DNA of 64,000 nucleotides, taken from Anaeromyxobacter soli. GTDB taxonomy: Bacteria > Myxococcota > Myxococcia > Myxococcales > Anaeromyxobacteraceae. The stretch is taken from the NCBI RefSeq assembly GCF_022808855.1, contig NZ_JAKZLF010000011.1, positions 1 through 64,000 on the forward strand, in the 5' to 3' direction. Under the pieces are notes generated by a model. That model did no database searches. It saw only the letters and a program-made list of their open reading frames with translations, and had not been told where the DNA came from. The position numbers and the translations under genes are program-made. Below, piece by piece: positions 4,767 through 60,116 of the stretch; the first letter of the stretch is position 1, and every line of letters starts with the position of its first letter.

Positions 4767-7079
4767 ATGACGTGGCGTGTGCGAGGCGCGGCGTGGAGCA
4801 TCGCCGCTGCGGTGGTGATCGCGGCGATGGCGTGCGGCGACAACAACAACAACAAGGGCGGAGGTGGAGGCGGCGGCGGCGGCGGCGGCACGGGCGACAC
4901 GTCCTCGAACCAGAACGGCGCGCTCAAGGTCGAGATCCAGAACGTCGAGGTGCCCGAGAGCGGCGCGCCGGTGCTCACGTTCCGCGTGACCTCCGACGGG
5001 ACCGCGGTGACCGACCTCGCACAGGAGGTGAAGAACGGCGTCGTCCCCTCCGGCTCGCCCCCGTCCACGACGTTTCCGTGGGTGAGCCCGATCCGCGTCG
5101 TGCTCTCGAAGTACGACCCCACGACGTCCGAGTTCACCTCCTATTACACCGTGAACGCGACCGGTCAGCCGTTCACGCCACCGGGCGGCACCGCGCAGCA
5201 GCCGAAGCAGGCGACCGCGACGCAGGCCACCTTCGACGCGGGACCCACGGACGCCACGCTCGATCAGCGCCTCACGCACCAGGGCGACGGCGTGTACAAG
5301 TACACGCTCGCGGCCATCCCCGCCGGCGCGCAGGTGGACCGGACGAAGACGCACACGGCAGGGATCTGGCTCACCCGGCACACGGCCGCTGGTGAGCCGG
5401 GCACGTCGTCGGCGACCTCGACCCGGAACTTCATCCCGGCGGGCGGGACCCCGAAGCGTCTGCAGATCGTGAGCAACGACGCGTGCAACGCGTGCCACGC
5501 TCCCGCGATCGCCGCGCACGACGAGCGGCTCGGCGCGACCGTCTGCCAGACCTGCCACTCCCCGCAGTCCACCGATCCCGAGTCGGGCAACAGCGTCGAC
5601 TTCAAGGTGATGGTCCACAAGATCCACATGGGCGGCGACCTGCCCTCGGCGCAGGGCGCGACGGGCCAGCCGTACACGATCGTGGGCTTCCGCCAGAACG
5701 TGTTCGAGTTCGACAAGTCGTGGATGCACGACGTGCGCGACTGCACCGTGTGCCACAAGGGCACGGACGCCGACCGCTACAAGACCAACGCCAACCAGGC
5801 GGCGTGCACCTCCTGCCACGACACCGTCAAGTTCGACGGGTCGGGCGCCGCCGCGTGCGCGCTCGGGACCACCGAGACGGCGCCGTGCAACCACGCGCAG
5901 GTCGGGGCGACCGCGTGCACGACGTGCCACACGGCGGACGCGGCCGGCATCGGCGTCGCGACCGTGCACGTGCCGCTCGCCAAGAAGGCCGAGGCGTACA
6001 AGTACGAGATCGTCAACGTGACCACCGGCGCGGACCGTAAGCCGGTCGTGCAGGTGCGGGTCACGAAGAACGGGACGCCGGTCGACCTCGCAGCGGACCC
6101 CGCCTACAAGCAGACGCTGAGTCGGCTCAACGTGAAGATCGGCTGGCACCAGCCGGGCGCCGCGGACTACACGAACGTGGGCAGCGGCGCGACGTCGCCG
6201 GGGCAGCCGGTGGACATCCCGGTGGTCGGCGCGACCGGCCTGACGCCCGCGGCCACGCCCGTCTCCGGCCAGACGAACGTGTACCAGGTGACCTCGCCCA
6301 CGGCGATCACCGACGGCGTCACCACCTACTCCGTCTTCATCGACGGCCGTCCCATCGAGAACGGGGAGGAGCTCCCGGTCAAGAACGTCATCCAGGACTA
6401 CGCGATCGGCGGCGGCCAGGCGGCGGCGCGGCGCCAGGTGGTGGACATCGCGAAGTGCGACTCGTGCCACGGCCAGCTCTCGGCGCACGGCGCGAACCGG
6501 AACGACGTCATCCAGGTCTGCGCGGTCTGTCACAACCCGCGCGCGACCGACAAGGGCCGGCGCACGGCGACGGCGACGAACCCTGCGTGCGCCGCCACCA
6601 CGACCGAGCAGTCCATCGACTTCAAGCGCATGATCCACGAGATCCACGGCGGGTCCATCCGCGGGAACGACCTGACGATCTGCGGGTTCGGTAGCAACCC
6701 GATCACCTTCGAGGCGGGTGCGGAGGTGCCGCAGCTCGACACGGTGCAGAACTGCACCCTCTGTCACACGGGCGAGACGTATCAGGTCCCGCCGGCGGGG
6801 AGCACGGTGCCGCTCGACACCACCTATGTCGCGAACGTCGTGGCGGACCAGACCGACGACACGACCACCCCGGCCGTCATCGCGGTGTGCACCGCCTGCC
6901 ACGACAACGCGAAGTTCACGGCCACGGCGGGGCTGCCCTCGTGCAGCTCGCTCGCGACCGTGAACAGCGAGCCGTGCGCGCACACGGGCGGCGAGGCGAC
7001 CGTCGGAACGACCTGCGTCGCCTGCCACGGCAAGGGGGCGCCGTTCGACATCGTGAAGTTCCACGACATCAAGCCGTAG
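4767..7079 (+). CDS. OmcA/MtrC family decaheme c-type cytochrome, outer-membrane lipoprotein
   Basis: 770 residues from ATG 4767, preceded by AAGGAG. The N-terminal signal ends in a lipobox (VIAAMAC), followed by GDNNNNK and a ten-glycine run, a flexible tether typical of a surface lipoprotein. Ten CxxCH heme motifs are visible: CNACH, CQTCH, CTVCH, CTSCH, CTTCH, then after a heme-free beta domain CDSCH, CAVCH, CTLCH, CTACH, CVACH. This five-plus-five arrangement separated by beta-barrel domains matches OmcA/MtrC proteins, which pass electrons from the outer membrane to extracellular iron or manganese oxides. No MtrA or MtrB partner is next to it. Strand, start and heme count are directly seen; metal reduction is inferred from the family. 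Confidence 0.93.
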   Translation: MTWRVRGAAWSIAAAVVIAAMACGDNNNNKGGGGGGGGGGGTGDTSSNQNGALKVEIQNVEVPESGAPVLTFRVTSDGTAVTDLAQEVKNGVVPSGSPPSTTFPWVSPIRVVLSKYDPTTSEFTSYYTVNATGQPFTPPGGTAQQPKQATATQATFDAGPTDATLDQRLTHQGDGVYKYTLAAIPAGAQVDRTKTHTAGIWLTRHTAAGEPGTSSATSTRNFIPAGGTPKRLQIVSNDACNACHAPAIAAHDERLGATVCQTCHSPQSTDPESGNSVDFKVMVHKIHMGGDLPSAQGATGQPYTIVGFRQNVFEFDKSWMHDVRDCTVCHKGTDADRYKTNANQAACTSCHDTVKFDGSGAAACALGTTETAPCNHAQVGATACTTCHTADAAGIGVATVHVPLAKKAEAYKYEIVNVTTGADRKPVVQVRVTKNGTPVDLAADPAYKQTLSRLNVKIGWHQPGAADYTNVGSGATSPGQPVDIPVVGATGLTPAATPVSGQTNVYQVTSPTAITDGVTTYSVFIDGRPIENGEELPVKNVIQDYAIGGGQAAARRQVVDIAKCDSCHGQLSAHGANRNDVIQVCAVCHNPRATDKGRRTATATNPACAATTTEQSIDFKRMIHEIHGGSIRGNDLTICGFGSNPITFEAGAEVPQLDTVQNCTLCHTGETYQVPPAGSTVPLDTTYVANVVADQTDDTTTPAVIAVCTACHDNAKFTATAGLPSCSSLATVNSEPCAHTGGEATVGTTCVACHGKGAPFDIVKFHDIKP

Positions 7080-7111
7080 CGCGAAGGACCCCCGAGCCGC
7101 GGGGGCGGCGA

Positions 7112-7150
7112 GGGCCCGGCCGGACATCCGGCCGGGCTCTCGTGTTTTTT
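7112..7150 (+). terminator. Intrinsic terminator after the decaheme cytochrome gene
   Basis: A perfect GC stem (7115-7123 with 7128-7136, loop ACAT), followed four bases after the extended stem by a run of six T (7145-7150). It separates the decaheme gene from the diheme gene and implies separate transcription. Confidence 0.85.
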
Positions 7151-7223
7151 CGGCACGAGCTGCCCGACCGGGGATGGCGTTCGGTAGGCGCCGTCACGAG
7201 CGTTTGGGGCCGCGGAGGGGCAC

Positions 7224-7895
7224 ATGCGCACGGGACGGAGCGGGTCGTGGATGGCGGCGCTGGCGGCGCTCGCGGTGGGCGCGGCGTGTGGCGACGCCCG
7301 CGAGGTGTCCGACGGCGGCGGCTCCAACGCGGGGGACCTGACCCCGTCGCCAGGGGCGCAGGCGTCCTTCGAGCAGCAGATCCACCCGCTCTTGCAGGGG
7401 AAGTGCGGGGCGTGCCACGGCAGCGCCTGGGGCTCCAGCGACGTGAACGCGTCGTACCAGGCGGCCCTCGGCGAGGTGAACACCGCGAGTCCGGCCCAGA
7501 GCCCGCTCTACGTGCGTCCCACGGGCGGGAGCGGCCACGCGAAGGTGCTCTCCGACGCGGAGGCGCAGCTCGTCCTGGAGTGGATCCAGCAAGGGGCGAA
7601 CGGACCGACCACACCGACCACGCCGACGACGCCTACCACGCCGACCGTCTCGTTCTCGACGCAGGTCCACCCGTTCCTCGTCGCGAGCTGCGGCGGCTGC
7701 CACGGGAGCGCGTGGGGCTCGAACGACACCGCGATCTCGTACGCGGCGGCGCTGCAGAAGGTGGACACGGCGAATCCCACGCAGAGCGCGCTCTACGTGC
7801 GCGGGACCGGCGGAAGCGGCCACGCCAAACGGCTCTCGGACGCGGACGCCCAGACGCTGCTCACGTGGATCCAGGAGGGGGCGAAGAACGACTGA
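7224..7895 (+). CDS. Duplicated diheme c-type cytochrome lipoprotein
   Basis: 223 residues. A signal peptide ends in a lipobox-like AVGAAC followed by GDAR. Two near-identical halves of about 85 residues each carry one heme site in the context CGACHGSAWGS (first) and CGGCHGSAWGS (second), each ending in a GGSGHAK..LSDA.A...L.WIQ.GA segment. A Thr-Pro linker of TTP repeats joins them. The repeat SYQAALGEVNT / SYAAALQKVDT confirms an internal duplication. It is predicted to be a periplasmic or outer-membrane electron carrier. Its position just downstream of the decaheme lipoprotein suggests the same respiratory context, though a terminator separates the two genes. Confidence 0.85.
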   Translation: MRTGRSGSWMAALAALAVGAACGDAREVSDGGGSNAGDLTPSPGAQASFEQQIHPLLQGKCGACHGSAWGSSDVNASYQAALGEVNTASPAQSPLYVRPTGGSGHAKVLSDAEAQLVLEWIQQGANGPTTPTTPTTPTTPTVSFSTQVHPFLVASCGGCHGSAWGSNDTAISYAAALQKVDTANPTQSALYVRGTGGSGHAKRLSDADAQTLLTWIQEGAKND

Positions 7896-7917
7896 GCTCC
7901 GGAGACGGCGGCGCGGC

Positions 7918-8592
7918 TCAGGCGCCCAGGCGCGCCGCGAGCCGCCGCAGCGCGAGCTCGGTCTTCCCGTCCTCGATCTCCCCGGCCTCGCACGCCGCGA
8001 TCGCCGCGTGGAGCTCGCGCCAGGCGAGCAGCGCTCCCTCCTCGAGCGGCGAGCCGTCTCCCTCGTGCGGCGCGTCGTGGATCCCGTCCACGTCGGGCCG
8101 CGGCACCTCGCCGGCGAGGAGGTGGATCTTCTCGGACACGATCCCGGGCAGCGGGAAGAACGGACCGCCGAGCAGCTCGAGGCGCTCCGGGACGATCTCG
8201 ACGCCGGCCTCCTCGCGCGCCTCCTCCGCGCCGCGGCGGCGCAGCGCCTCGAGTCCTCGCTCTCCAGGCTCGAGCACCCCCGCCACGATCTCCTCCACGA
8301 GCAGGTACTCGGGCTCGGGGAGCGCGGCCGGCTTGCCGCGACGGAAGTACGCGGCGGGCCGCAGCCCGCGGCGCGTGAGGATCTCGATCCCGCGCGGCGT
8401 CCGTGCCCAGAGCACGACGGCCACCGCGTCCAGCGTCGGCCGGTCGATGACGTCGATCGGGTAGACGGGCGAGGTCGTCCCGTCGGCGCGGCGGTTTTGG
8501 GCCCGGTAGCGCTTCAGGCGGAGGAAGCCCTCGTCGCAGCGGGCGCGCCCGGTGTAGTCCTCGACGATCTCGATGGCGGCGATCTTCGGCAT
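7918..8592 (-). CDS. Nudix hydrolase (ADP-ribose pyrophosphatase-like)
   Basis: 224 residues. The Nudix region runs from about residue 95 to 130, with a recognisable AEEAREEAGV core. It is preceded by LPEPEYLLVEEIVAGVLEPGE, the layout of ADP-sugar pyrophosphatases that hydrolyse nucleoside diphosphates linked to another group. The Nudix box is slightly divergent at its start. The C-terminal half has FFPLPGIVSEKIHLLAGEV, typical of NudF-type enzymes. Start ATG at 8592. It converges with the diheme cytochrome gene and diverges from the ferritin-like pair. Confidence 0.8.
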   Translation of the reverse strand: MPKIAAIEIVEDYTGRARCDEGFLRLKRYRAQNRRADGTTSPVYPIDVIDRPTLDAVAVVLWARTPRGIEILTRRGLRPAAYFRRGKPAALPEPEYLLVEEIVAGVLEPGERGLEALRRRGAEEAREEAGVEIVPERLELLGGPFFPLPGIVSEKIHLLAGEVPRPDVDGIHDAPHEGDGSPLEEGALLAWRELHAAIAACEAGEIEDGKTELALRRLAARLGA

Positions 8593-8748
8593 GCGGGAAA
8601 GCCTGCACGCGCTCCGCCCACGCGCAAGCGCAGACCTCGCCGGGGCACCCGCCCTGCTCTTCGCGATCGTCCGAGCGTCCCTCCGTCTCCCCGCCGGGGG
8701 GTAGTGGACTGGATCCATCGATGACAACCTTTTCCGCAGGAGGAACCG

Positions 8749-9225
8749 ATGAAGCAGTCGGAGGTGAGCAGGGAGCTTGCGCGGCTGCTGGCGCTCGAGA
8801 TCGACGCACTCCACGCTTACGACGCGGCCATCGCCTGGGTGGGCGGGCCGAGCAGCGCGATCGGCGGGGAGCTCGCGCTGTTCAAGGTGGAGCACCAGCG
8901 GCACGCGCTCGCGCTGCACGAGGCGCTCCTCGGGATGGGTGCCCGCCCCCCGGAGGTCGAGCCCGACGTGAAGGGGGTCGTCATCGGCGCGCTCACCCCG
9001 CCGCGGCGGCGCCTGAACCCGCAGGAGGTGCTCGAGGCGATGCGCAACAACGAGCAGCTCACGACTGCGGTGCACCGCAAGGTGCTCGCCGTGCCGTTGC
9101 CCGAGGACGTCCGCGCGCTCGTGGAAGGGGCGTACGCGGACGAGGAGCGCCACCTCGCCTGGATCGAGGAGGCGCTCGCCCGCGCGCTCTGGTTCCAGAC
9201 GTCCCCCGTCGCCGCCCTGCCGTAG
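8749..9225 (+). CDS. Ferritin-like (DUF2383-type) protein, copy 1
   Basis: 158 residues, start ATG 8749 with a perfect AGGAGG at 8738-8743. All-helical pattern with the ferritin-like metal-ligand positions E.DA..AYDAAI, EHQRHALALHE and the C-terminal DEERHLAWIEEAL. Such four-helix proteins bind a di-iron or similar centre, and bacterial DUF2383 proteins have no fixed function (stress, metal handling). The partner at 9298 is a clear paralog with the same spacing of E and H residues. Iron binding is inference from the residue pattern. Confidence 0.75.
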   Translation: MKQSEVSRELARLLALEIDALHAYDAAIAWVGGPSSAIGGELALFKVEHQRHALALHEALLGMGARPPEVEPDVKGVVIGALTPPRRRLNPQEVLEAMRNNEQLTTAVHRKVLAVPLPEDVRALVEGAYADEERHLAWIEEALARALWFQTSPVAALP

Positions 9226-49680: not shown

Positions 49681-50652
49681 ATGCGCGCGCTCGTGACCGG
49701 TGCCGGCGGGTTCCTCGGGTCGGCGCTCGTGCGCCGGCTGGCCGCGCGCGGCGAGCGCGTGCGCGCCCTCGTCCGCGCGCCGGCGCCCGCCCTCGAGGCC
49801 CTCCCCGGCGTCGACGTCCTCTTCGGAGACGCGACGAGCCCGGCGTCGCTGCGCGCCGCGGTGCGCGGCTGCGACGTCGTGTTCCACCTGGCGGGCGTCC
49901 GCCGCGCGACGGCTCCCGACGAGTTCCTGCGGGTGAACGCGGGCTCGACCCGGCTGGCGCTCGACGCCTGCCTCGCCGAGGCGCAGGGCCTCTCGCGCTT
50001 CGTGCTCGCGGGCTCGATCGCCGCGGCGGGCCCCTCGCGGACGCCCCGCGGCGAGGACGAGCCGCTCGAGCCCGTGGAGCCCTACGGCGCGTCGAAGGCG
50101 GAGGCGGAGCGGATCGCCTTCGCCTACGCCGATCGCCTGCCGGTGGCGGTCGCCCGGCCGCCGCGGATCATGGGGCCGGGCGATCGCGAGAACCTCTTCC
50201 TGTTCCGGCTGGCGCGTGCCGGGCTGGCGATCGGTCTCCGCGGCCCGGAGCGGCCGCTCTCCTGGATCGACGTGGACGACTGCGCGCGCGGGATGATCCT
50301 GCTCGCCGAGAAGCCGGAGGCCGCCGGGGAGGCGTTCTTCCTCGCCTCCCCGGTCACCACCGACGCGCTCTCGATCCAGCTCGAGGCCGCGCGCGCGCTC
50401 GGCGTCCGCGCGCGGACCGTGAAGGTGCCCCCCGCGGCGGTGCGCGGCGCCGCGGCGCTCGCAGAGCTCGTCACGAGCACGACCGGTCGCCGCCTCCCGC
50501 TGAACCGCAAGCTCGCGGCGCAGGCCCTCGCGCCGGGCTGGGTGTGCGATCCTGGGAAGGCGCGCGCCCGGCTCGGCTTCGAGGCGAGGACGCCGCTCTC
50601 CGACTCGATCGCCCGCGCCGCCGCCTGGTACCGCGCCCGCGGGTGGCTCTGA
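49681..50652 (+). CDS. NAD-dependent epimerase/dehydratase (extended SDR), copy 1
   Basis: 323 residues. NAD-binding TGAGGFLGSALVRRL at the N-terminus, DVVFHLAGV, the YxxxK active site in EPYGASKAEAERIAF and a C-terminal substrate region (LSWIDVDDCARGM). It is the same family as 57,747, which ends the run. It may reduce or oxidise a lipid or sugar intermediate. There is no close ribosome binding site; a GC-rich 196-bp spacer precedes it. Confidence 0.82.
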   Translation: MRALVTGAGGFLGSALVRRLAARGERVRALVRAPAPALEALPGVDVLFGDATSPASLRAAVRGCDVVFHLAGVRRATAPDEFLRVNAGSTRLALDACLAEAQGLSRFVLAGSIAAAGPSRTPRGEDEPLEPVEPYGASKAEAERIAFAYADRLPVAVARPPRIMGPGDRENLFLFRLARAGLAIGLRGPERPLSWIDVDDCARGMILLAEKPEAAGEAFFLASPVTTDALSIQLEAARALGVRARTVKVPPAAVRGAAALAELVTSTTGRRLPLNRKLAAQALAPGWVCDPGKARARLGFEARTPLSDSIARAAAWYRARGWL

Positions 50653-50695
50653 CGCATCACGGCGCGGCACCGCACCGAGGGGCCCCTCGCCGCGC

Positions 50696-50723
50696 TTGCC
50701 AAGCCGCACCACGACAGTCTACA
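50696..50723 (+). promoter_or_regulatory. Possible sigma-70-like promoter before the HAD-IB gene
   Basis: TTGCCA (50696-50701) and TCTACA (50718-50723) are separated by 16 bases. A start near 50,730 would be only a few bases before ATG 50735. The weak -10 and near-leaderless geometry keep this tentative. Confidence 0.3.
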
Positions 50724-50734
50724 GAGGCTCACCT

Positions 50735-51412
50735 ATGGCGGGAACGGAGAGGGCCGCCTTCTTCGACGTGGACGGGACGCTCGTGCGCACGAACATCGTG
50801 CACGCGTTCGCGTTCTACGCGATGAACCAGGGCTCCATCCTCGGCACGGCCTGGCAGACCGCCCGGACGGTGCTGTCGCTGCCGCTCTTCGCGGCGGCGG
50901 ACCGGATGAACCGGAAGCTCTTCAACGAGGTCTTCTACCGGTACTACTCCGGCCAGAGCGAGGACCGCCTGGAGACGCTCGCCGGGGAGCTCTTCGAGGA
51001 CGTGCTCCGGCCGGCGATCTTCCCCGGCACGCCGCGCCTCATCGACGAGACGCGCCGCGCCGGCTGCCGGGTGGTCCTCGTGACCGGCGCCCTCGACTTC
51101 ACGGTGCGGCGCCTCGCCGAGCACCTCGGGGCCGACGACCTCATCGCGAACCGGATGCGGTTCGTGCAGGGCGTCGCCACCGGCCGCGTCATCCCGCCCA
51201 TCATCGAGGGCGCGCACAAGGCGCTCGCGATGCGCGACTACTGCGTGCGCGAGGGGCTGGCGCTCGAGAAGAGCTTCGCGTACTCCGACTCCTTCTCCGA
51301 CTACCCGATGCTCGCCGTCGTGGGCCACCCCGCCGCGGTGAACCCCGACGTGCGGCTCGCGCGCGTCGCGCGGGCCTACGAGTGGCCCATCCTCAGGACC
51401 ACGGAGGCGTGA
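50735..51412 (+). CDS. HAD-IB family phosphatase
   Basis: 225 residues. HAD motifs: AAFFDVDGTLVRTN (nucleophile Asp), VVLVTGALDFTVR (motif II), the Lys of EGAHKALAMRDY (motif III) and YSDSFSDYPML (motif IV). The HAD-IB subgroup includes SerB-like and lipid phosphate phosphatases. In this operon it could dephosphorylate a lipid intermediate. An analogous HAD-IB gene is, from memory, part of the Myxococcus elb ether-lipid cluster. It ends three bases before the next gene. Confidence 0.88.
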   Translation: MAGTERAAFFDVDGTLVRTNIVHAFAFYAMNQGSILGTAWQTARTVLSLPLFAAADRMNRKLFNEVFYRYYSGQSEDRLETLAGELFEDVLRPAIFPGTPRLIDETRRAGCRVVLVTGALDFTVRRLAEHLGADDLIANRMRFVQGVATGRVIPPIIEGAHKALAMRDYCVREGLALEKSFAYSDSFSDYPMLAVVGHPAAVNPDVRLARVARAYEWPILRTTEA

Positions 51413-51415
51413 CGC

Positions 51416-53029
51416 ATGCGTGACCCGAAGAGCCTCGCGCGGTTCTACGAGACGACCGAGCAGATCGTCACCATCGACAAGGACTCGCCCCCGCGCGTCC
51501 TCTTCTCCGGCGAGGACCTGCTCGTCGAGGACCTGCCCGTCGGCACCCGCGTCATCTACCCGAAGCCGCCGCTCGAGGGGCTGCCGAACGTGAAGGCGGC
51601 GATCCGGAGCGCGATCAACCGGCCGGAGGGCTGCGATCCGCTGCACGCGCTCCTGCGCCCCGGGATGCGGGTGACGATCGCCATCGACGACATCTCGCTC
51701 CCCCTGCCCCCGATGCGGACGCCCGACGTCCGCCAGCAGGTGCTCGAGGTGATCCTGCCGCTCCTCGCGGAGTCCGGCGTCGACGACGTCCACCTCGTCA
51801 TCGCGATCGCCCTCCACCGCCGCATGACCGAGGCGGAGATGCGGCGGATGGTGGGCGACCAGATCTTCGACGCCTACTACCCCGACCGCTACTACAACCA
51901 CGACGCCGAGGACCCCGACGGCTGCGTCGTCCTCGGCACCACCGCGCACGGCGAGAAGGTCATCGTGAACCGCCGCGCGGCGGAGTCGGACCTGCTCATC
52001 TACGTGAACCTGAACCTCGTCCCCATGGACGGCGGCCACAAGTCGGTCTCGACCGGGCTCACCAACTACGAGGGCGTGAAGGCGCACCACACGCCGCACC
52101 ACATCCGCAAGAGCCACTCGTACATGGACCCGGAGCGCTCCGAGATGCACCGCTCCGTGGACCGGATCGGCCGCTACGTCGACGAGCACCTCCAGGTCTT
52201 CCACATCGAGACGACCATCAACAACCGGATGTTCGACGGGCCGCTCGAGTTCCTCATGAAGAAGGAGGAGGACTACACCGAGCTCGATCGGCTCAAGCTC
52301 GCGGGCATGCGCGCGACCCTGAAGCGGCTCCCGCCCGTGGCGAAGCGCAAGATCTTCCAGGCCGTGCCGGCGCCGTACGACGTGATCGCCGTGCACGCGG
52401 GCCTGACCGAGCCCACGCACGCGAAGATCCTCGAGAAGAGCTGGGCGCAGTACGCCGTGGACGTGGACTTCCAGGCGGACGTGCTCATCTACGGCATCCC
52501 GTACGTCTCGCCGTACAACGTGAACTCGATCCTGAACCCGCTGCTCGTCCAGGTCATGGCCTGCGGGTACTTCTTCAACTTCTACCGGGGCAAGCCGCTC
52601 GTGAAGAAGGGCGGCACGCTCATCGTCACGCACCCGTGCTCGGACTCGTTCGACCCCGAGCACCACCCGAGCTACATCGAGTTCTTCCACCGGCTCCTGC
52701 CGGAGACCCGCGACGCGCAGGTGCTCGAGGCGCGCTACGAGCGCGAGCTCGCCGAGAACCCGACCTACGTCCACATGTACCGGACCGGCCACGCGTACCA
52801 CGGGGCGCACCCGTTCTTCATGTGGTACTGGGGCGAGAACGGTCGCCAGCACGTCGGCAAGGTGATCGCCGCCGGGGCGGACAACGCGCACGTGCCGCGC
52901 ATGATGGGCTGGGACCACGCGGAGACGCTCTCGGAGGCCATCGACATGGCGCGCGCGATCCACGGCCGCAGCGCGTCCATCGCGCTCCTCCACCACCCGC
53001 CGATCGTCATGACGCAGAACCTCGGATGA
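51416..53029 (+). CDS. LarA-like DUF2088 protein
   Basis: 537 residues, longer than lactate racemase LarA (about 425). The N-terminal LarA-type domain is recognisable: [36 protein letters not shown], and [25 protein letters not shown] leading to [10 protein letters not shown], where LarA has its pincer-cofactor lysine. The His expected before the GG.K loop appears as Met (VPMDGG). The C-terminal half is rich in aromatic and His residues ([22 protein letters not shown]). No larB/C/E genes are in the window. Its stop overlaps the next start (ATGA). The function in a lipid operon is unknown. Confidence 0.8.
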
Positions 53030-56000
53030 GCGAGCGCCGCGACAGATCCCGCCCCGCGCACCAGCACCCGGGCCCGCGCCCGGGCGCCGGCCGCACGGCC
53101 TCGACCGCCGCCGACCCTCTCGACGTCGGCCGCGCGCTCGCCGGGCGCAAGATCCTCGTCACCGGCGCGACCGGCTTCGTGGGCAAGGTCGCGCTCTCGA
53201 TGCTCCTCGACCGCTACCCCGACGTCGGCCGGGTCTTCGTGCTCGTCCGCCCCGGGACCGGCGGCACCGCCGAGGCCCGCTTCTTCGACAAGGTCGCCCC
53301 GAGCCGCCCGTTCGACACGCTGCGCGCGCGCCACGGGGCCGGCTTCGAGGCCTTCCTCCGCGAGAAGTGCGTGCCGCTCGCCGGCGACGTGACCGATCCG
53401 CTCCTCGGCCTCTCCGAGGCGGACCTCGCGCGCCTCGAGGGGCTCGACGCGGTCGTGAACAGCGCCGGCCTCGTCGACTTCGACCCCTCGCTCGAGCTCG
53501 CGCTCGCCGTGAACGTCCGCGGGCCGCGGAGCGCGGTCGAGCTCTGCCGGACCACCGGCGCGGCGCTCCTGCACGTGTCCACCTGCTTCGTCGCGGGGAA
53601 CCGCGACGGCGTCGTCCACGAGGACGAGGAGCTCCCGGGCTACTTCCCGCGCCGCGAGGGCGTCGAGGGCCGGCCGAAGGCGGGCGCCCTCGCCGCCGCC
53701 GACTTCGACGTGGACGGCGAGCTCGCCGACGCCACGCGGCGCATCGAGGAGCTCCGCGCGCGCGCCGACGACCGCGTGCTCCAGTCCGAGTTCCGCGATC
53801 GCGCGCTGGAGCGGCTCCGCGCCGAGGGGCGCGCGGGCGACGAGAAGGCCCTGCGGCTCGCCGTCGGCCGCGAGAGGCGGCTGTGGCTGTCCGGGCAGCT
53901 CGTCGAGGCGGGCATGACCCGCGCCCGCCACTGGGGCTGGCCCAACACGTACACCTACACGAAGTCGCTCGGCGAGCAGGTCATCGCCGCGAGCGCGCTC
54001 GGAGGCGCCCGGGGCGAGCGGGTGGTCTGGTCGATCGTCCGGCCGTCGATCGTCGAGAGCGCGCTCCGCTTCCCGTTCCCCGGCTGGAACGAGGGGTTCA
54101 CGACGAGCGCGCCGCTCGCCTTCATGGCGCTCAAGGGGCACCGCAGCTTCCCCGCCGCGGAGAAGGCGATCCTGGACGTCGTGCCGGTCGATCTCGTCGC
54201 GGCGGCGATGATCGCGGCGACCGCCGAGCTCGTGGAGCGCCGCGACGCCTCGCGGGCGTCCGGGGCCGGGGAGCTCCCGGAGGGCCGCGTCTACCACCTC
54301 GCCTCGGGCGACGTGAACCCCCTCTGGGCGCGGCGCGCGGTCGAGCTCACGGCGCTCTACCGGCGCCGCTTCTTCCGCGAGCGCGAGGAGGGGAACCGCA
54401 CCTGGAACCGGCTCCTCTCCCGGCTCGAGCCCTACTCCGTCTCGCGCGCCCACTACGAGGCGGCGAGCGCGCCCGCGATCTCCGCGCTCGCCCGCGGGGC
54501 GAAGCGGCTCCTCCTGGAGGCGTCGCCGCGCTGGGGCGCGCCGCGGCTCACGGCGCTCGCCGAGGGGGCCGCCGAGAGCCTCGACGAGCTCGGCAATCGG
54601 CTCGAGAAGACGAAGGCCATGTGGGACCTCTACATGCCGTTCGTCTGGGACAACCGCTACGTCTTCCGCTGCGCCGCGATCCGCGCGCTGTACGCGCGGC
54701 TCGGCGACGCGGACCGCGCGCGCGTGCCGTGGGATCCGGAGGCGCTCGACTGGCGGCGCTACTGGCTCGACGTGCACATGAAGGGCATGGAGGAGTGGGT
54801 GTTCCCGGGGCTCGAGGAGGAGTCCGGCAAGCGCGTCCACGCCCCCAAGGCCCACCGCGACCTGCTCGAGCTCCTCGACGCCGGGTGCGAGCGCTGGAAG
54901 GACCGCGTCGCGCTGCGGATGCAGGGCGCGGCGAAGACGCGGGTCACGTACGGCGAGCTGCGGCGGGGCGCCGGCGCGGTCGCCGCGTTCCTGCACGCGG
55001 CCGGGGTCGCGAAGGGCGACCGCGTGCTGCTCGCGAGCGAGAACCGGCCCGAGTGGGCGATCGCCTACTTCGGGATCCTCCGCGCCGGCGCGGCGGCGGT
55101 CCCGGTGGATCCGCAGCTCACCGAGCGCGAGCTCGCGAACCTCTGGCGGACCGCCGGAGCGCGCCTCGCGCTCCTCTCCGACGACGCCGCCGAGCGCAGC
55201 CCCGGCCTCGCGGCGCTCGCCGCCGCGGCGGTGCCCGGCGCGCGCACCGCGCTCCTCGGGGAGGCGCTCGCGGGCGGCCCCCCCGGCGCGGGCGCGCCGC
55301 CCGTGAAGATCGGCCCGGACGACCTCGCCTCGCTCATCTTCACGAGCGGGACGACCGGCACGCCCAAGGGCGTCATGCTCTCGCACCGCAACTTCGCGAG
55401 CCTCGTCGCGAAGCTCGTCGGCACGTTCGAGCTCGGCCCGGGCGACGGCATGCTGTCCGTGCTCCCGCTGCACCACACCTTCGAGTTCACCTGCGGGCTG
55501 CTCGTGCCGCTCTCGCGCGGCGCGGAGATCGAGTACCTCGACGAGCTCACCTCGGACCGCATCTCCGAGGCGCTCTCCGCCGGGCGCGTGACGGCGATGA
55601 TCGGGGTGCCGGCGCTCTGGTCGCTCCTCCACCGCCGCATCACGCAGGAGCTCGCGGCGAAGCCCGGCGTGGTCGAGGCCGCGTTCCGCGCGCTCATGAA
55701 GGGCAACGCCGCGCTGCGCGACTCCGAGCTCGGGGTGAACCTCGGCAAGCTCCTCTTCTGGCCGGTGCACCGCCGCTTCGGCGGCCGCCTGCGCCTGCTC
55801 GTGTCGGGCGGCTCCGCGCTCGATCCCGAGGTCCAGAAGGCGTTCCGCGAGCTCGGCTTCGACCTGTACGAGGGCTACGGGCTCACGGAGGCGGCGCCGG
55901 TCCTCGCGGTGTCGCAGCCCGAGGAGGAGGCGCCGAAGGGGAGCGTCGGTCCGGCGCTGCCCGGCGTCGAGCTCAGGATCTCCGAGCCGGACGCGGACGG

Positions 56001-57750
56001 CGTCGGCGAGGTGCTCGCCCGCGGGCCGAACGTCATGCTCGGCTACTGGCGCGGCGGCGAGCACGCCGGCGTCGATCCCGAGCTCACCGGCCAGGTGCTC
56101 GAGGGCGGCTGGCTGCGGACCGGCGACCTCGGCAAGCTCGACGCGAACGGCAACCTCACCCTCGTCGGGCGCAAGAAGGACGTCATCATCGACGCCAACG
56201 GGAAGAACGTCTACCCGGACGAGGTCGAGGACGCCTACCGCGAGCCGGAGCTCGTGAAGGAGCTGTGCGTCGTGGGGCTCCCCGACGGCACGGGCGAGAA
56301 GGTCGCGCTCATCGTCGTGCCCGAGTACGGCGAGGACGATCGCGAGGAGGTGCGCGCCCGCCTCGAGGCCCACGTGCGCGCGGTGTCGGCGTCCCTCCCG
56401 TTCGCGAAGCGCGCGAAGGTCTGGCACGTCGTGGACGGCGAGCTGCCGAAGACGGCGACGCGGAAGGTGAAGCGCGGCCTCGTGCGCGAGGAGCTGCTCC
56501 GGCTCGAGACGGCCGCGCAGAAGGGGCGGCGCGCGCGGGAGTCGGCGAAGGACCGCGGCGCGGGCGAGGGCTGGCTCCTCGATCTCCTCGCCGAGGTCTC
56601 GCGCCGCCCGCGGGCCGAGGTGACGCACGAGTCGCACCTCGCGACCGATCTCGGCTTCGACAGCCTGATGCTCACCGAGCTCACCGCCGCGCTGGAGGAG
56701 GCGGGCGTGCCCGCGTCCGCCGCCGAGCACCTGCAGGACGTCCAGACCGCGGGCGAGCTCGCGCGCGTCGTCTCGGCGGCGGTCCACCGCCACGCGCCGG
56801 AGCCGGAGCGCGCCGCCCCGCCGCCGCCCGCCGGCGACGCGGAGATCGCGGTGCCGGCGGCGCTGGCGAAGCTCGGTCGTCGCCTGCTCGGGCTCGGCCA
56901 GCGCGCCCTCTACCACGGGCTCTACGAGGCGAAGGTCGTCGGCGCCGCGAACATCCCGCACGATCGCAACGTGCTCGTCGTCGCGAACCACGCGAGCCAC
57001 CTCGACATGGGGCTCGTCAAGATCGCGCTCGGCGAGGAGGGCCGGCGCCTCGCCGCGCTCGCCGCGCGGGACTACTTCTTCGACACCCGCGTGAAGCGCG
57101 CCTACTTCGAGAACTTCACGAACCTCATCCCGATGGAGCGCGAGGGCTCGCTCAAGGCGAGCCTCAAGGCCGCGGCCGAGGCGCTCCGCCGCGGGTACCA
57201 CCTCCTCATCTTCCCCGAGGGGACGCGCACCCGCGACGGCGCGCTGCGGCCGTTCTTCCCGACCGCGGGCTACCTCGCGCTGCAGTGCAACGTGGACGTG
57301 CTGCCGCTCCACCTCGACGGCACCTTCGAGGCGCTGCCGCCGGGCAAGAGCGTCCCGCGCAACGCCGAGCTCGAGGTGCGCATCGGCCGCCCCATCGCCG
57401 TCGAGGAGCTGCGCCAGCGCATCGCCGGCCTGCCGCGGAGCGAGGGGTACAAGGTCGCGACGCGGGTGATCGAGGACGCCGTCCGCGCCCTGCGGGAGGC
57501 GGCGAAGGGCGAGCGGAAGGCCTCGACCGGCGGCGCGATCGCGACCTCGACCGGCGGCGCGACCGCGACCTCGACCGGCGGCGCGACCGCGACCTCGATC
57601 GCCAAGGCGACCGCGACGCCGACGCCGGCGCCGGCCCCCGCCTCCCCCGCCACTCCGACTCCGACCCCGAGCTCGACCCCGCACGCCACCCAGACCGGCG
57701 CCGCGACCGCCACGCGTACCCGCGCCCGGCGGCGGAAGGACGAGCCATGA
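53026..57750 (+). CDS. elbD: ElbD-like multidomain enzyme: fatty acyl reductase, AMP ligase, ACP, acyltransferase
   Basis: 1,574 residues. Domain order: NAD(P)-dependent fatty acyl reductase (about 40-560; GATGFVGKV at 47, YTYTKSLGE near 309); AMP-forming ligase (about 620-1150; [11 protein letters not shown] near 772, [24 protein letters not shown]); ACP ([12 protein letters not shown] near 1209); PlsC-type acyltransferase (about 1290-1495; NHASHLD near 1321, [10 protein letters not shown] near 1397). The tail from about 1499 is low-complexity Thr/Ala/Pro with an ATSTGGAT-type repeat. The domain set matches Myxococcus ElbD, needed for alkyl-ether lipid formation (from memory). It would activate, load, reduce and transfer fatty chains. 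Confidence 0.88.
57521..57600 (+). repeat. 24-bp tandem repeat in the ElbD-like C-terminal tail
   Basis: Three near-perfect copies of a 24-base unit (57521-57544, 57545-57568, 57569-57592) plus a partial fourth encode an eight-residue STGGATAT-type repeat. It follows the acyltransferase domain and is in frame. It probably changes in copy number by slippage. Confidence 0.85.
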
Positions 57751-58781
57751 ACGTCCTCGTCACCGGCGCGACCGGGTTCCTCGGCTCGGCCCTCGTGCCG
57801 CTCCTCGCCGGAGAGGGCCACCGGCTGCGGCTCCTGCAGCGCTCCGCCCCGCCGGACGCGGAGCGGATCGGCGCGGAGGTGGTGCGCGCCTCCCTCGCGG
57901 ACGAGGGCGCCGTGCGGGAGGCGGTCCGCGGCGTCGACGCCGTGTACCACCTCGCCGGCCAGGTGGACTTCGATCCGGCCGAGCCGCGCGCGCTCTACGA
58001 CCTGCACGTCCAGGGCACGCGCCGGCTCCTCGAGGCCTGCGTCGCGGCCGGGGTGAAGCGGGTCGTGCTCGCCTCCTCCTCGGGCACCATCGCGGTCTCG
58101 CGCGAGGAGCGCGTCGCCACCGAGGCGGACCACCACCCCATCGCCGTGGTCGCGGGCTGGCCGTACTACCTGTCCAAGATCTACCAGGAGAAGGCCGCGC
58201 TCCGGATCCACGCGGAGACGGGGCTGCCGCTCGTCGTGCTGAACCCGTCGCTCCTGCTCGGGCCCGGCGACGCGCGCCTCTCCTCGACCGACGTCGTGTT
58301 CAAGTTCATGGAGCGGCGCATCCCCGCGATGCCCTCGGGCGGCCTCTCGTTCGTGGACGTGCGCGACGCGGCGCGCGCGTTCAGCGCCGCGCTCACGCGA
58401 GGGCGGCCCGGCGAGCGCTACCTGCTCGGCGGCGCCAACATGACGTTCCGCGACTTCTTCGGCCGGCTCGAGCGGCTCACCGGCGTCGCGGGCCCGCGCG
58501 TGCGGCTCCCGTCCGACCTGAACCTCGCCGGCGCGCGGCTCCTCGAGAAGTTCCACGCCTGGCGCGGCAGCGAGACGCCGCTCGATCCGCGATCCGTCGA
58601 GATGGGCGAGCACTTCTGGTACTGCGCGTCCGGCAAGGCCGAGGCGGAGCTCGGCTTCTCCGCGCGCGACGCGCAGGAGACGCTGTTCGACACGGTCCGC
58701 TGGCTCGAGGAGCACGTGCGCAACCGGCAGCGGCCCCGCACCGTCGCGGACCTCGCCGGCTCCTCGCGGTCCCCGCGCTGA
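57747..58781 (+). CDS. NAD-dependent epimerase/dehydratase (extended SDR), copy 2
   Basis: 344 residues. TGATGFLGSALVPLL, AVYHLAGQVDF and the YxxxK in WPYYLSKIYQEK; the C-terminus includes GEHFWYCASGKAEAELGF. It resembles 3-beta-hydroxysteroid dehydrogenase/dihydroflavonol reductase-like SDRs that reduce keto intermediates in lipid pathways. ATG 57747 overlaps the ElbD stop, so it is translationally coupled and probably acts on the ElbD product. It corresponds to the SDR at the end of the Myxococcus elb cluster (from memory). Confidence 0.88.
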   Translation: MNVLVTGATGFLGSALVPLLAGEGHRLRLLQRSAPPDAERIGAEVVRASLADEGAVREAVRGVDAVYHLAGQVDFDPAEPRALYDLHVQGTRRLLEACVAAGVKRVVLASSSGTIAVSREERVATEADHHPIAVVAGWPYYLSKIYQEKAALRIHAETGLPLVVLNPSLLLGPGDARLSSTDVVFKFMERRIPAMPSGGLSFVDVRDAARAFSAALTRGRPGERYLLGGANMTFRDFFGRLERLTGVAGPRVRLPSDLNLAGARLLEKFHAWRGSETPLDPRSVEMGEHFWYCASGKAEAELGFSARDAQETLFDTVRWLEEHVRNRQRPRTVADLAGSSRSPR

Positions 58782-60038: not shown

Positions 60039-60044
60039 GGAGAG

Positions 60045-60116
60045 AGGCACCGCCCGGATTCGAACCGGGGAATAAAGGTTTTGCAGACCTTTGCCTTACC
60101 ACTTGGCGACGGTGCC
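60045..60116 (-). tRNA. tRNA-Cys (anticodon GCA)
   Basis: Cloverleaf on the minus strand. The acceptor stem GGCACCG/CGGTGCC has discriminator U. The anticodon stem AAGGT/ACCTT encloses the loop CTGCAAA, anticodon GCA. T-loop GGTTCGAATCC is present. The 3' CCA is not encoded (TCTC follows), unlike the Glu and Gln tRNAs at the left end. It is followed by a hairpin terminator. Confidence 0.95.

Follow-up and report, generated by a model that had tools for sequence, protein, structure and literature searches.

The Myxococcus xanthus elb operon and its counterpart in Anaeromyxobacter soli

In Myxococcus xanthus most ether lipids require ElbD, encoded in the operon elbABCDE (Lorenzen et al. 2014, as described in a review, PMC9131029). 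According to that account insertions in elbA left the lipids unaffected, elbE probably matters, the effects of elbB are regarded as polar, and elbC, for which no mutant is described, appears as a 'protein of unknown function'. In the M. xanthus operon MXAN_1676-1674 a reductase, an acyltransferase and an epimerase are found together with alkylglycerone-phosphate synthase (AGPS) (PMC9131029). Here we analyse a 64-kb stretch of the A. soli genome (positions 1-64,000 of contig NZ_JAKZLF010000011.1, hereafter the window), in which the region 49681-58781 has the gene order reported for M. xanthus and is, judged from its gene products, a complete elbABCDE alkyl-ether-lipid operon. We propose, with a probability of roughly 0.7, that its ElbC is a hydride-transfer enzyme of the Elb pathway that uses the nickel-pincer nucleotide (NPN) cofactor and one catalytic histidine, and not a two-histidine hydroxyacid racemase. 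An organometallic nickel cofactor may then take part in bacterial ether-lipid synthesis. ElbC bears on the question of how, in the absence of AGPS, the ether bonds that depend on ElbD are made.

Fold and active site of ElbC

ElbC matches Pfam Lar_N and is co-linear over its whole length with the NCBIfam family NF052592 (LarAH14/15/16; 857 bits against a cut-off of 740, residues 17-534 on profile positions 2-518 of 520). The family is named NPN-dependent hydroxyacid isomerase, and we found no member of it with a demonstrated activity. The AlphaFold model of ElbC, built from 19 ElbCs, is of high confidence (pLDDT of 89, pTM of 0.88), and the best PDB match was the nickel-pincer LarA 9q3k, which has a single catalytic histidine (E 1.8e-34, TM 0.77/0.86), followed by 9q3j and then by canonical LarAs.

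The active site was followed in a set of 120 distinct ElbCs that are 56-100% identical (codons in Table 1). The first-pass annotation had described a LarA-like protein that lacks one expected histidine, and alignment with LarA structures confirms it: the missing residue is the second catalytic histidine (LarA His174), with no histidine at or near its position in any of the 120 sequences. In the profile alignment to 8ezf the residue opposite His174 is Asn200; the loop being 3-4 residues shorter than in 9q2u, the register here is uncertain. ElbC Tyr367 and His465, equivalent to Tyr307 and His401 of the Streptococcus single-histidine LarA, are 100% invariant in the same set. For LarA Lys298 (helix 11), the C-terminal domains of ElbC and 5huq do not align reliably by sequence.

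In LarA, Arg75 touches the NPN phosphate and the substrate carboxylate (the carboxylate in Isosphaera LarA), and in the single-histidine LarAs this residue is a lysine (PMC12611868). The hydrophobic residue found at this position in ElbC argues against a carboxylate substrate. This bears on the alternative in which ElbC would simply racemise or isomerise alpha-hydroxyacids to provide a small building block, with only a loose connection to the lipid genes. Both the name of NF052592 and the alpha-hydroxyacid substrates of every LarA homologue characterised so far (PMC7583248, PMC11770544) speak for such an enzyme, but the absence of His174, the always hydrophobic Arg75 position, the inactivity of Frankia LarAH14 on the hydroxyacids tested (PMC7583248) and the co-inheritance with ElbD described below make it quite unlikely.

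Three paralogues with 29-31% identity to ElbC (L060 8465-10042, L061 8116-9645 and L067 8191-9693) are full-length proteins in which the cofactor lysine, the nickel histidine and the catalytic histidine have all been lost. They were set aside as ElbCs for this reason and are possible non-nickel proteins of the LarA fold. Their losses make the retention of these residues in ElbC informative.

Co-inheritance and neighbourhood of ElbC and ElbD

Among 195 Myxococcota genomes ElbC was found in 138 and ElbD, scored by its fatty acyl-CoA reductase (FAR) region, also in 138, with 137 shared by both. This co-inheritance strongly indicates that ElbC has a role in the lipid pathway, in line with the lipid-related role suggested by the first-pass annotation. 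The exceptions are G070, with ElbC and no detected ElbD, and G014, with a stand-alone reductase. The ElbD-like match in G014 was rejected as an ElbD, since it is a FAR of 616 aa that stands alone within a different cluster. That cluster (L152, G014 contig 7, 145-10388) also contains a HAD protein, two AMP ligases, a NAD_binding_4 protein and pyruvyl-transferase-like and lipid-kinase-like genes, and possibly belongs to another lipid pathway. A second FAR match in G129 (L151) was considered as a candidate AGPS operon; its flanking ORFs were listed, and no conclusion is drawn from them.

The association could in principle be purely clonal, inherited by the myxobacteria without any shared pathway. 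Many of the sampled genomes are closely related, and loci of Polyangium, Sorangium and Minicystis have elbB-elbC with no elbD nearby. However, both proteins are present in 13 families and neither in 18, within the family of A. soli itself both are missing from two genera, the loci from Acidobacteria retain the elbBCDE order intact, and the start and stop codons overlap in the window, all of which makes a purely clonal origin highly improbable. Furthermore, in many genomes the two genes are distant or lie on different contigs (for example G189, G015-G018 and G143-G145), so the co-occurrence is not explained by linkage alone.

We also compared 80 further genome loci, including those from Acidobacteria, of which 78 could be used for the elbB-elbC spacing. 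In 62 of these 78, elbB lies at most 1.5 kb upstream of elbC. The pair is also adjacent, with neither elbD nor elbE nearby, in the Polyangium, Sorangium and Minicystis loci (L077, L080, L083, L085, L095, L099), indicating that of the whole cluster elbB-elbC holds together best. The gene elbA was found mainly in Myxococcaceae-type loci. A direct search located a lipid kinase of the YegS/diacylglycerol-kinase type adjoining elbE in six diverse loci (L147, L114, L048, L086, L087 and L129). Several loci have genes between elbC and elbD that were discarded, from their Pfam matches, as unrelated insertions (arginine decarboxylase, subtilase, amidohydrolase, CorA, PilZ and others). Clustering of the open reading frames (ORFs) over the 80 loci gave no further gene common across groups beyond the Elb genes and antisense ORFs, and no close ElbC was found on plasmids.

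Supply of the nickel-pincer cofactor

The first-pass annotation had seen no maturation genes near the LarA-like protein and, from this and the missing histidine, had concluded that the protein probably has a new lipid-related role, which implies an argument against the nickel-pincer cofactor. The observation holds for the window, from which larB, larC and larE are absent; elsewhere in the same genome all three are present (larB 269 bits, larC 422 bits, larE 319 bits; all exceed their cut-offs). The implied argument fails, with larBCE in the genome, the cofactor lysine and the nickel histidine invariant, and many larBCE-keeping genomes in which ElbC is the only LarA homologue. A fully conserved LarA active site together with larBCE in the genome had been named there as the finding that would refute this role; the genes are indeed there, and the full two-histidine site is not conserved.

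When LarA homologues were sought with PF09861 (Lar_N), ElbC was the sole Lar_N protein in about 108 of the 195 genomes, 106 of which keep larC, whereas larC was found in 18 of the 39 genomes without any Lar_N protein. LarB and LarE follow the same distribution. Single-contig genomes such as G118, G119, G121, G128, G130 and G136 show this pattern, ElbC as the sole LarA with the lar genes kept, with no gaps. In addition, in Plesiocystis pacifica (L147, NZ_ABCS01000003.1) a divergent larB-larE-larC group (6058-9012) lies directly beside elbBCDE, with all three genes exceeding their NCBIfam cut-offs and a lipid kinase at the same locus. This adjacency supports, without proving, a nickel link.

The alternative here is that ElbC carries no NPN and is a structural or lipid-binding subunit of an Elb complex, larBCE serving other clients. 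The loss of the second catalytic histidine would fit this, as would the suggestion of Desguin et al. that some LarA groups, 16 included, do not use NPN (PMC7583248), and the first two of the genome observations given in the next paragraph. On the other hand the cofactor lysine, the nickel-ligand histidine and the aspartate are 100% invariant, though they drift in the distant paralogues, larBCE are retained where ElbC is the only LarA, and larBEC adjoins elbBCDE in Plesiocystis. We consider an NPN-free subunit rather unlikely, and loading of ElbC with NPN is what its conserved residues would predict.

Several points nevertheless weigh against a nickel-dependent ElbC. Because the larBCE genes persist in some genomes without a Lar_N match, they may also serve other purposes. 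In G054 (95% complete) elbBCDE is present, with no larC and no true larB match. The A. soli genome also encodes a canonical two-histidine LarA, which could be the larBCE client here. The larC contrast is inflated by relatedness, and counted by family it becomes 8 of 9 against 5 of 13 (p = 0.03). The lar-elb adjacency was seen in one lineage of the 80 loci and is missing from the near relative Enhygromyxa (L114). Finally, both the cofactor content and the activity of ElbC are predictions, and we infer what its substrate is and what ElbB and the lipid kinase do.

The genomes with larC plus larB and/or larE and no Lar_N protein were G044-G046, G048, G158-G160, G163 and G192-G194. In the A. soli genome a two-histidine LarA gene lies directly downstream of genes for an amidase and a PlsC-type acyltransferase (L062, contig C9, 4290-6404), which is another possible LarA-lipid neighbourhood.

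Proposed role in ether-lipid synthesis

That a phosphatase gene (elbB) lies on one side of the cluster and, in some loci, a lipid kinase gene on the other suggests that the intermediate is a dephosphorylated glyceride without charge. An uncharged glyceryl lipid is the putative substrate of ElbC. In the pathway that we propose, ElbB would strip the phosphate from a lyso-glycerophospholipid and ElbC would oxidise the C2 hydroxyl of the resulting glyceride via NPN, either transiently or as a net reaction. ElbD would deliver a fatty aldehyde or alcohol and acyl groups, ElbE would reduce a carbonyl and, in some lineages, the adjacent lipid kinase would re-phosphorylate the product.

A more specific and doubtful version makes ElbC a nickel-pincer ether synthase that replaces AGPS by a hidden redox reaction. 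NPN would take the C2 hydride of a dephosphorylated acylglycerol, and the transient ketone so formed would activate C1, where the acyl group would be exchanged for a fatty alcohol made by ElbD before the hydride is returned. If so, this would be the first role of the NPN cofactor in lipid synthesis.

The elb operon type and both protein families were already known. Our literature search found no paper joining lactate racemase with ether lipids; where ElbC and ether lipids were named together it was only as a protein of unknown function (PMC9131029), which the 2014 Elb paper may annotate further. A link between ElbC, nickel and ether lipids was not found in the literature searched. If true, nickel availability and larBCE would have a part in how myxobacteria and some Acidobacteria make ether lipids and plasmalogens, and the large one-histidine LarA group would have its first pathway. 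It would also explain why Myxococcota are among the phyla richest in LarA homologues (PMC11770544). M. xanthus already offers ElbD phenotypes and lipid assays, and the P. pacifica locus is a good system for the nickel link.

Layout of the operon

The five genes follow each other on one strand in the order epimerase-HAD-ElbC-ElbD-epimerase (Table 1). The Elb-type operon recognised in the first-pass annotation, with its HAD-IB phosphatase, DUF2088 protein, ElbD and a short-chain dehydrogenase/reductase (SDR), is thus borne out, as is the remark that its genes overlap or nearly touch. The first SDR (elbA) had not been named, and its presence completes the match to elbABCDE. The LarA-like protein had been presented as lodged inside the operon; actually elbC is a standard member and not an intruder. 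A gap of 82 nt separates elbA from elbB and one of 3 nt elbB from elbC, and 4-nt overlaps (ATGA) join elbC to elbD and elbD to elbE, with the ATG of elbD at 53026 and that of elbE at 57747. This spacing from elbB to elbE and the sharing of start and stop codons in ATGA are as in tightly coupled operons. The FAR region of ElbD resembles the solved fatty acyl-CoA reductase 7eoz (E 2.5e-53), and the best PDB sequence match of ElbE was 3wj7, a putative oxidoreductase (E 4e-48). Scanning the operon for promoters and terminators returned no signal beyond chance. Downstream of it, on the minus strand, is a tRNA-Cys gene (anticodon gca, window 60044-60116).

Table 1 Features of the A. soli elb operon and of the ElbC active site (window positions; conservation in the 120 ElbCs)
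Feature	Position	Strand	Evidence or conservation
elbA, NAD-dependent epimerase/SDR, 323 aa	49681..50652	+	Pfam Epimerase 7.9e-35
elbB, HAD-IB phosphatase, 225 aa	50735..51412	+	Pfam HAD 2e-37, 130 bits; TIGR01490 132 bits (cut-off 98)
elbC, LarA-superfamily DUF2088/Lar_N protein, 537 aa, LarAH14/15/16	51416..53029	+	NF052592
ElbC Asp92 codon = LarA Asp72 (cofactor ribose contact)	51689..51691	+	invariant
ElbC Leu95 codon at LarA Arg75 position	51698..51700	+	L, V, M or I in 120/120
ElbC His134 codon = LarA catalytic His108	51815..51817	+	invariant
ElbC Asn200 codon, at or next to lost catalytic His174	52013..52015	+	invariant Asn
ElbC Lys209 codon = LarA Lys184 (covalent cofactor attachment)	52040..52042	+	invariant
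ElbC His225 codon = LarA His200 (nickel ligand)	52088..52090	+	invariant
elbD megasynthase, 1574 aa	53026..57750	+	Pfam NAD_binding_4, AMP-binding, PP-binding, PlsC-type Acyltransferase
ElbD fatty acyl-CoA reductase domain (NAD_binding_4)	53158-54210	+	Pfam
ElbD AMP ligase domain	54880-56049	+	Pfam
ElbD acyl carrier protein (ACP) domain (PP-binding)	56572-56769	+	Pfam
ElbD PlsC-type acyltransferase domain	56932-57309	+	Pfam
elbE, SDR of epimerase/carbonyl reductase type, 344 aa	57747..58781	+	Pfam Epimerase 1.4e-37

Comparison with known systems

The closest solved fold to ElbC is that of the single-histidine LarAs of Blautia wexlerae and Streptococcus plurextorum (9q3j and 9q2u/9q3k; PMC12611868). 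Like them, ElbC has one catalytic histidine and retains the equivalents of the cofactor lysine, the nickel histidine, Tyr307 and His401. Identity is however ~21-23%, Lys76 is replaced by a hydrophobic residue and His306 by Pro366, the loop is shorter, and the context is ether lipid instead of sugar metabolism. With Lactiplantibacillus plantarum LarA (5huq, 6c1w) ElbC shares the two-domain fold and the equivalents of His108, Lys184, His200 and Asp72, but it is longer, has lost His174 and Arg75 and is ~17-19% identical.

The M. xanthus elb operon agrees in its five gene types and in their order, with elbC upstream of elbD and, in ElbD, the domain order FAR, acyl-CoA synthetase (ACS), ACP and acyltransferase that Pfam gives for the A. 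soli protein. This likeness rests on the published description, the sequences that we compared coming from genomes that carry this operon, G118 for example. What differs from that description is that here ElbC is assigned to the LarA superfamily and its active site is mapped. The operon MXAN_1676-1674 has in common with elb a fatty acyl-CoA reductase, an acyltransferase and a NAD-dependent epimerase (PMC9131029). AGPS is present in MXAN_1676-1674 and not in elb, which has ElbC and ElbB in its place. With the reductase, acyltransferase and epimerase shared by both operons, ElbC stands where AGPS stands.

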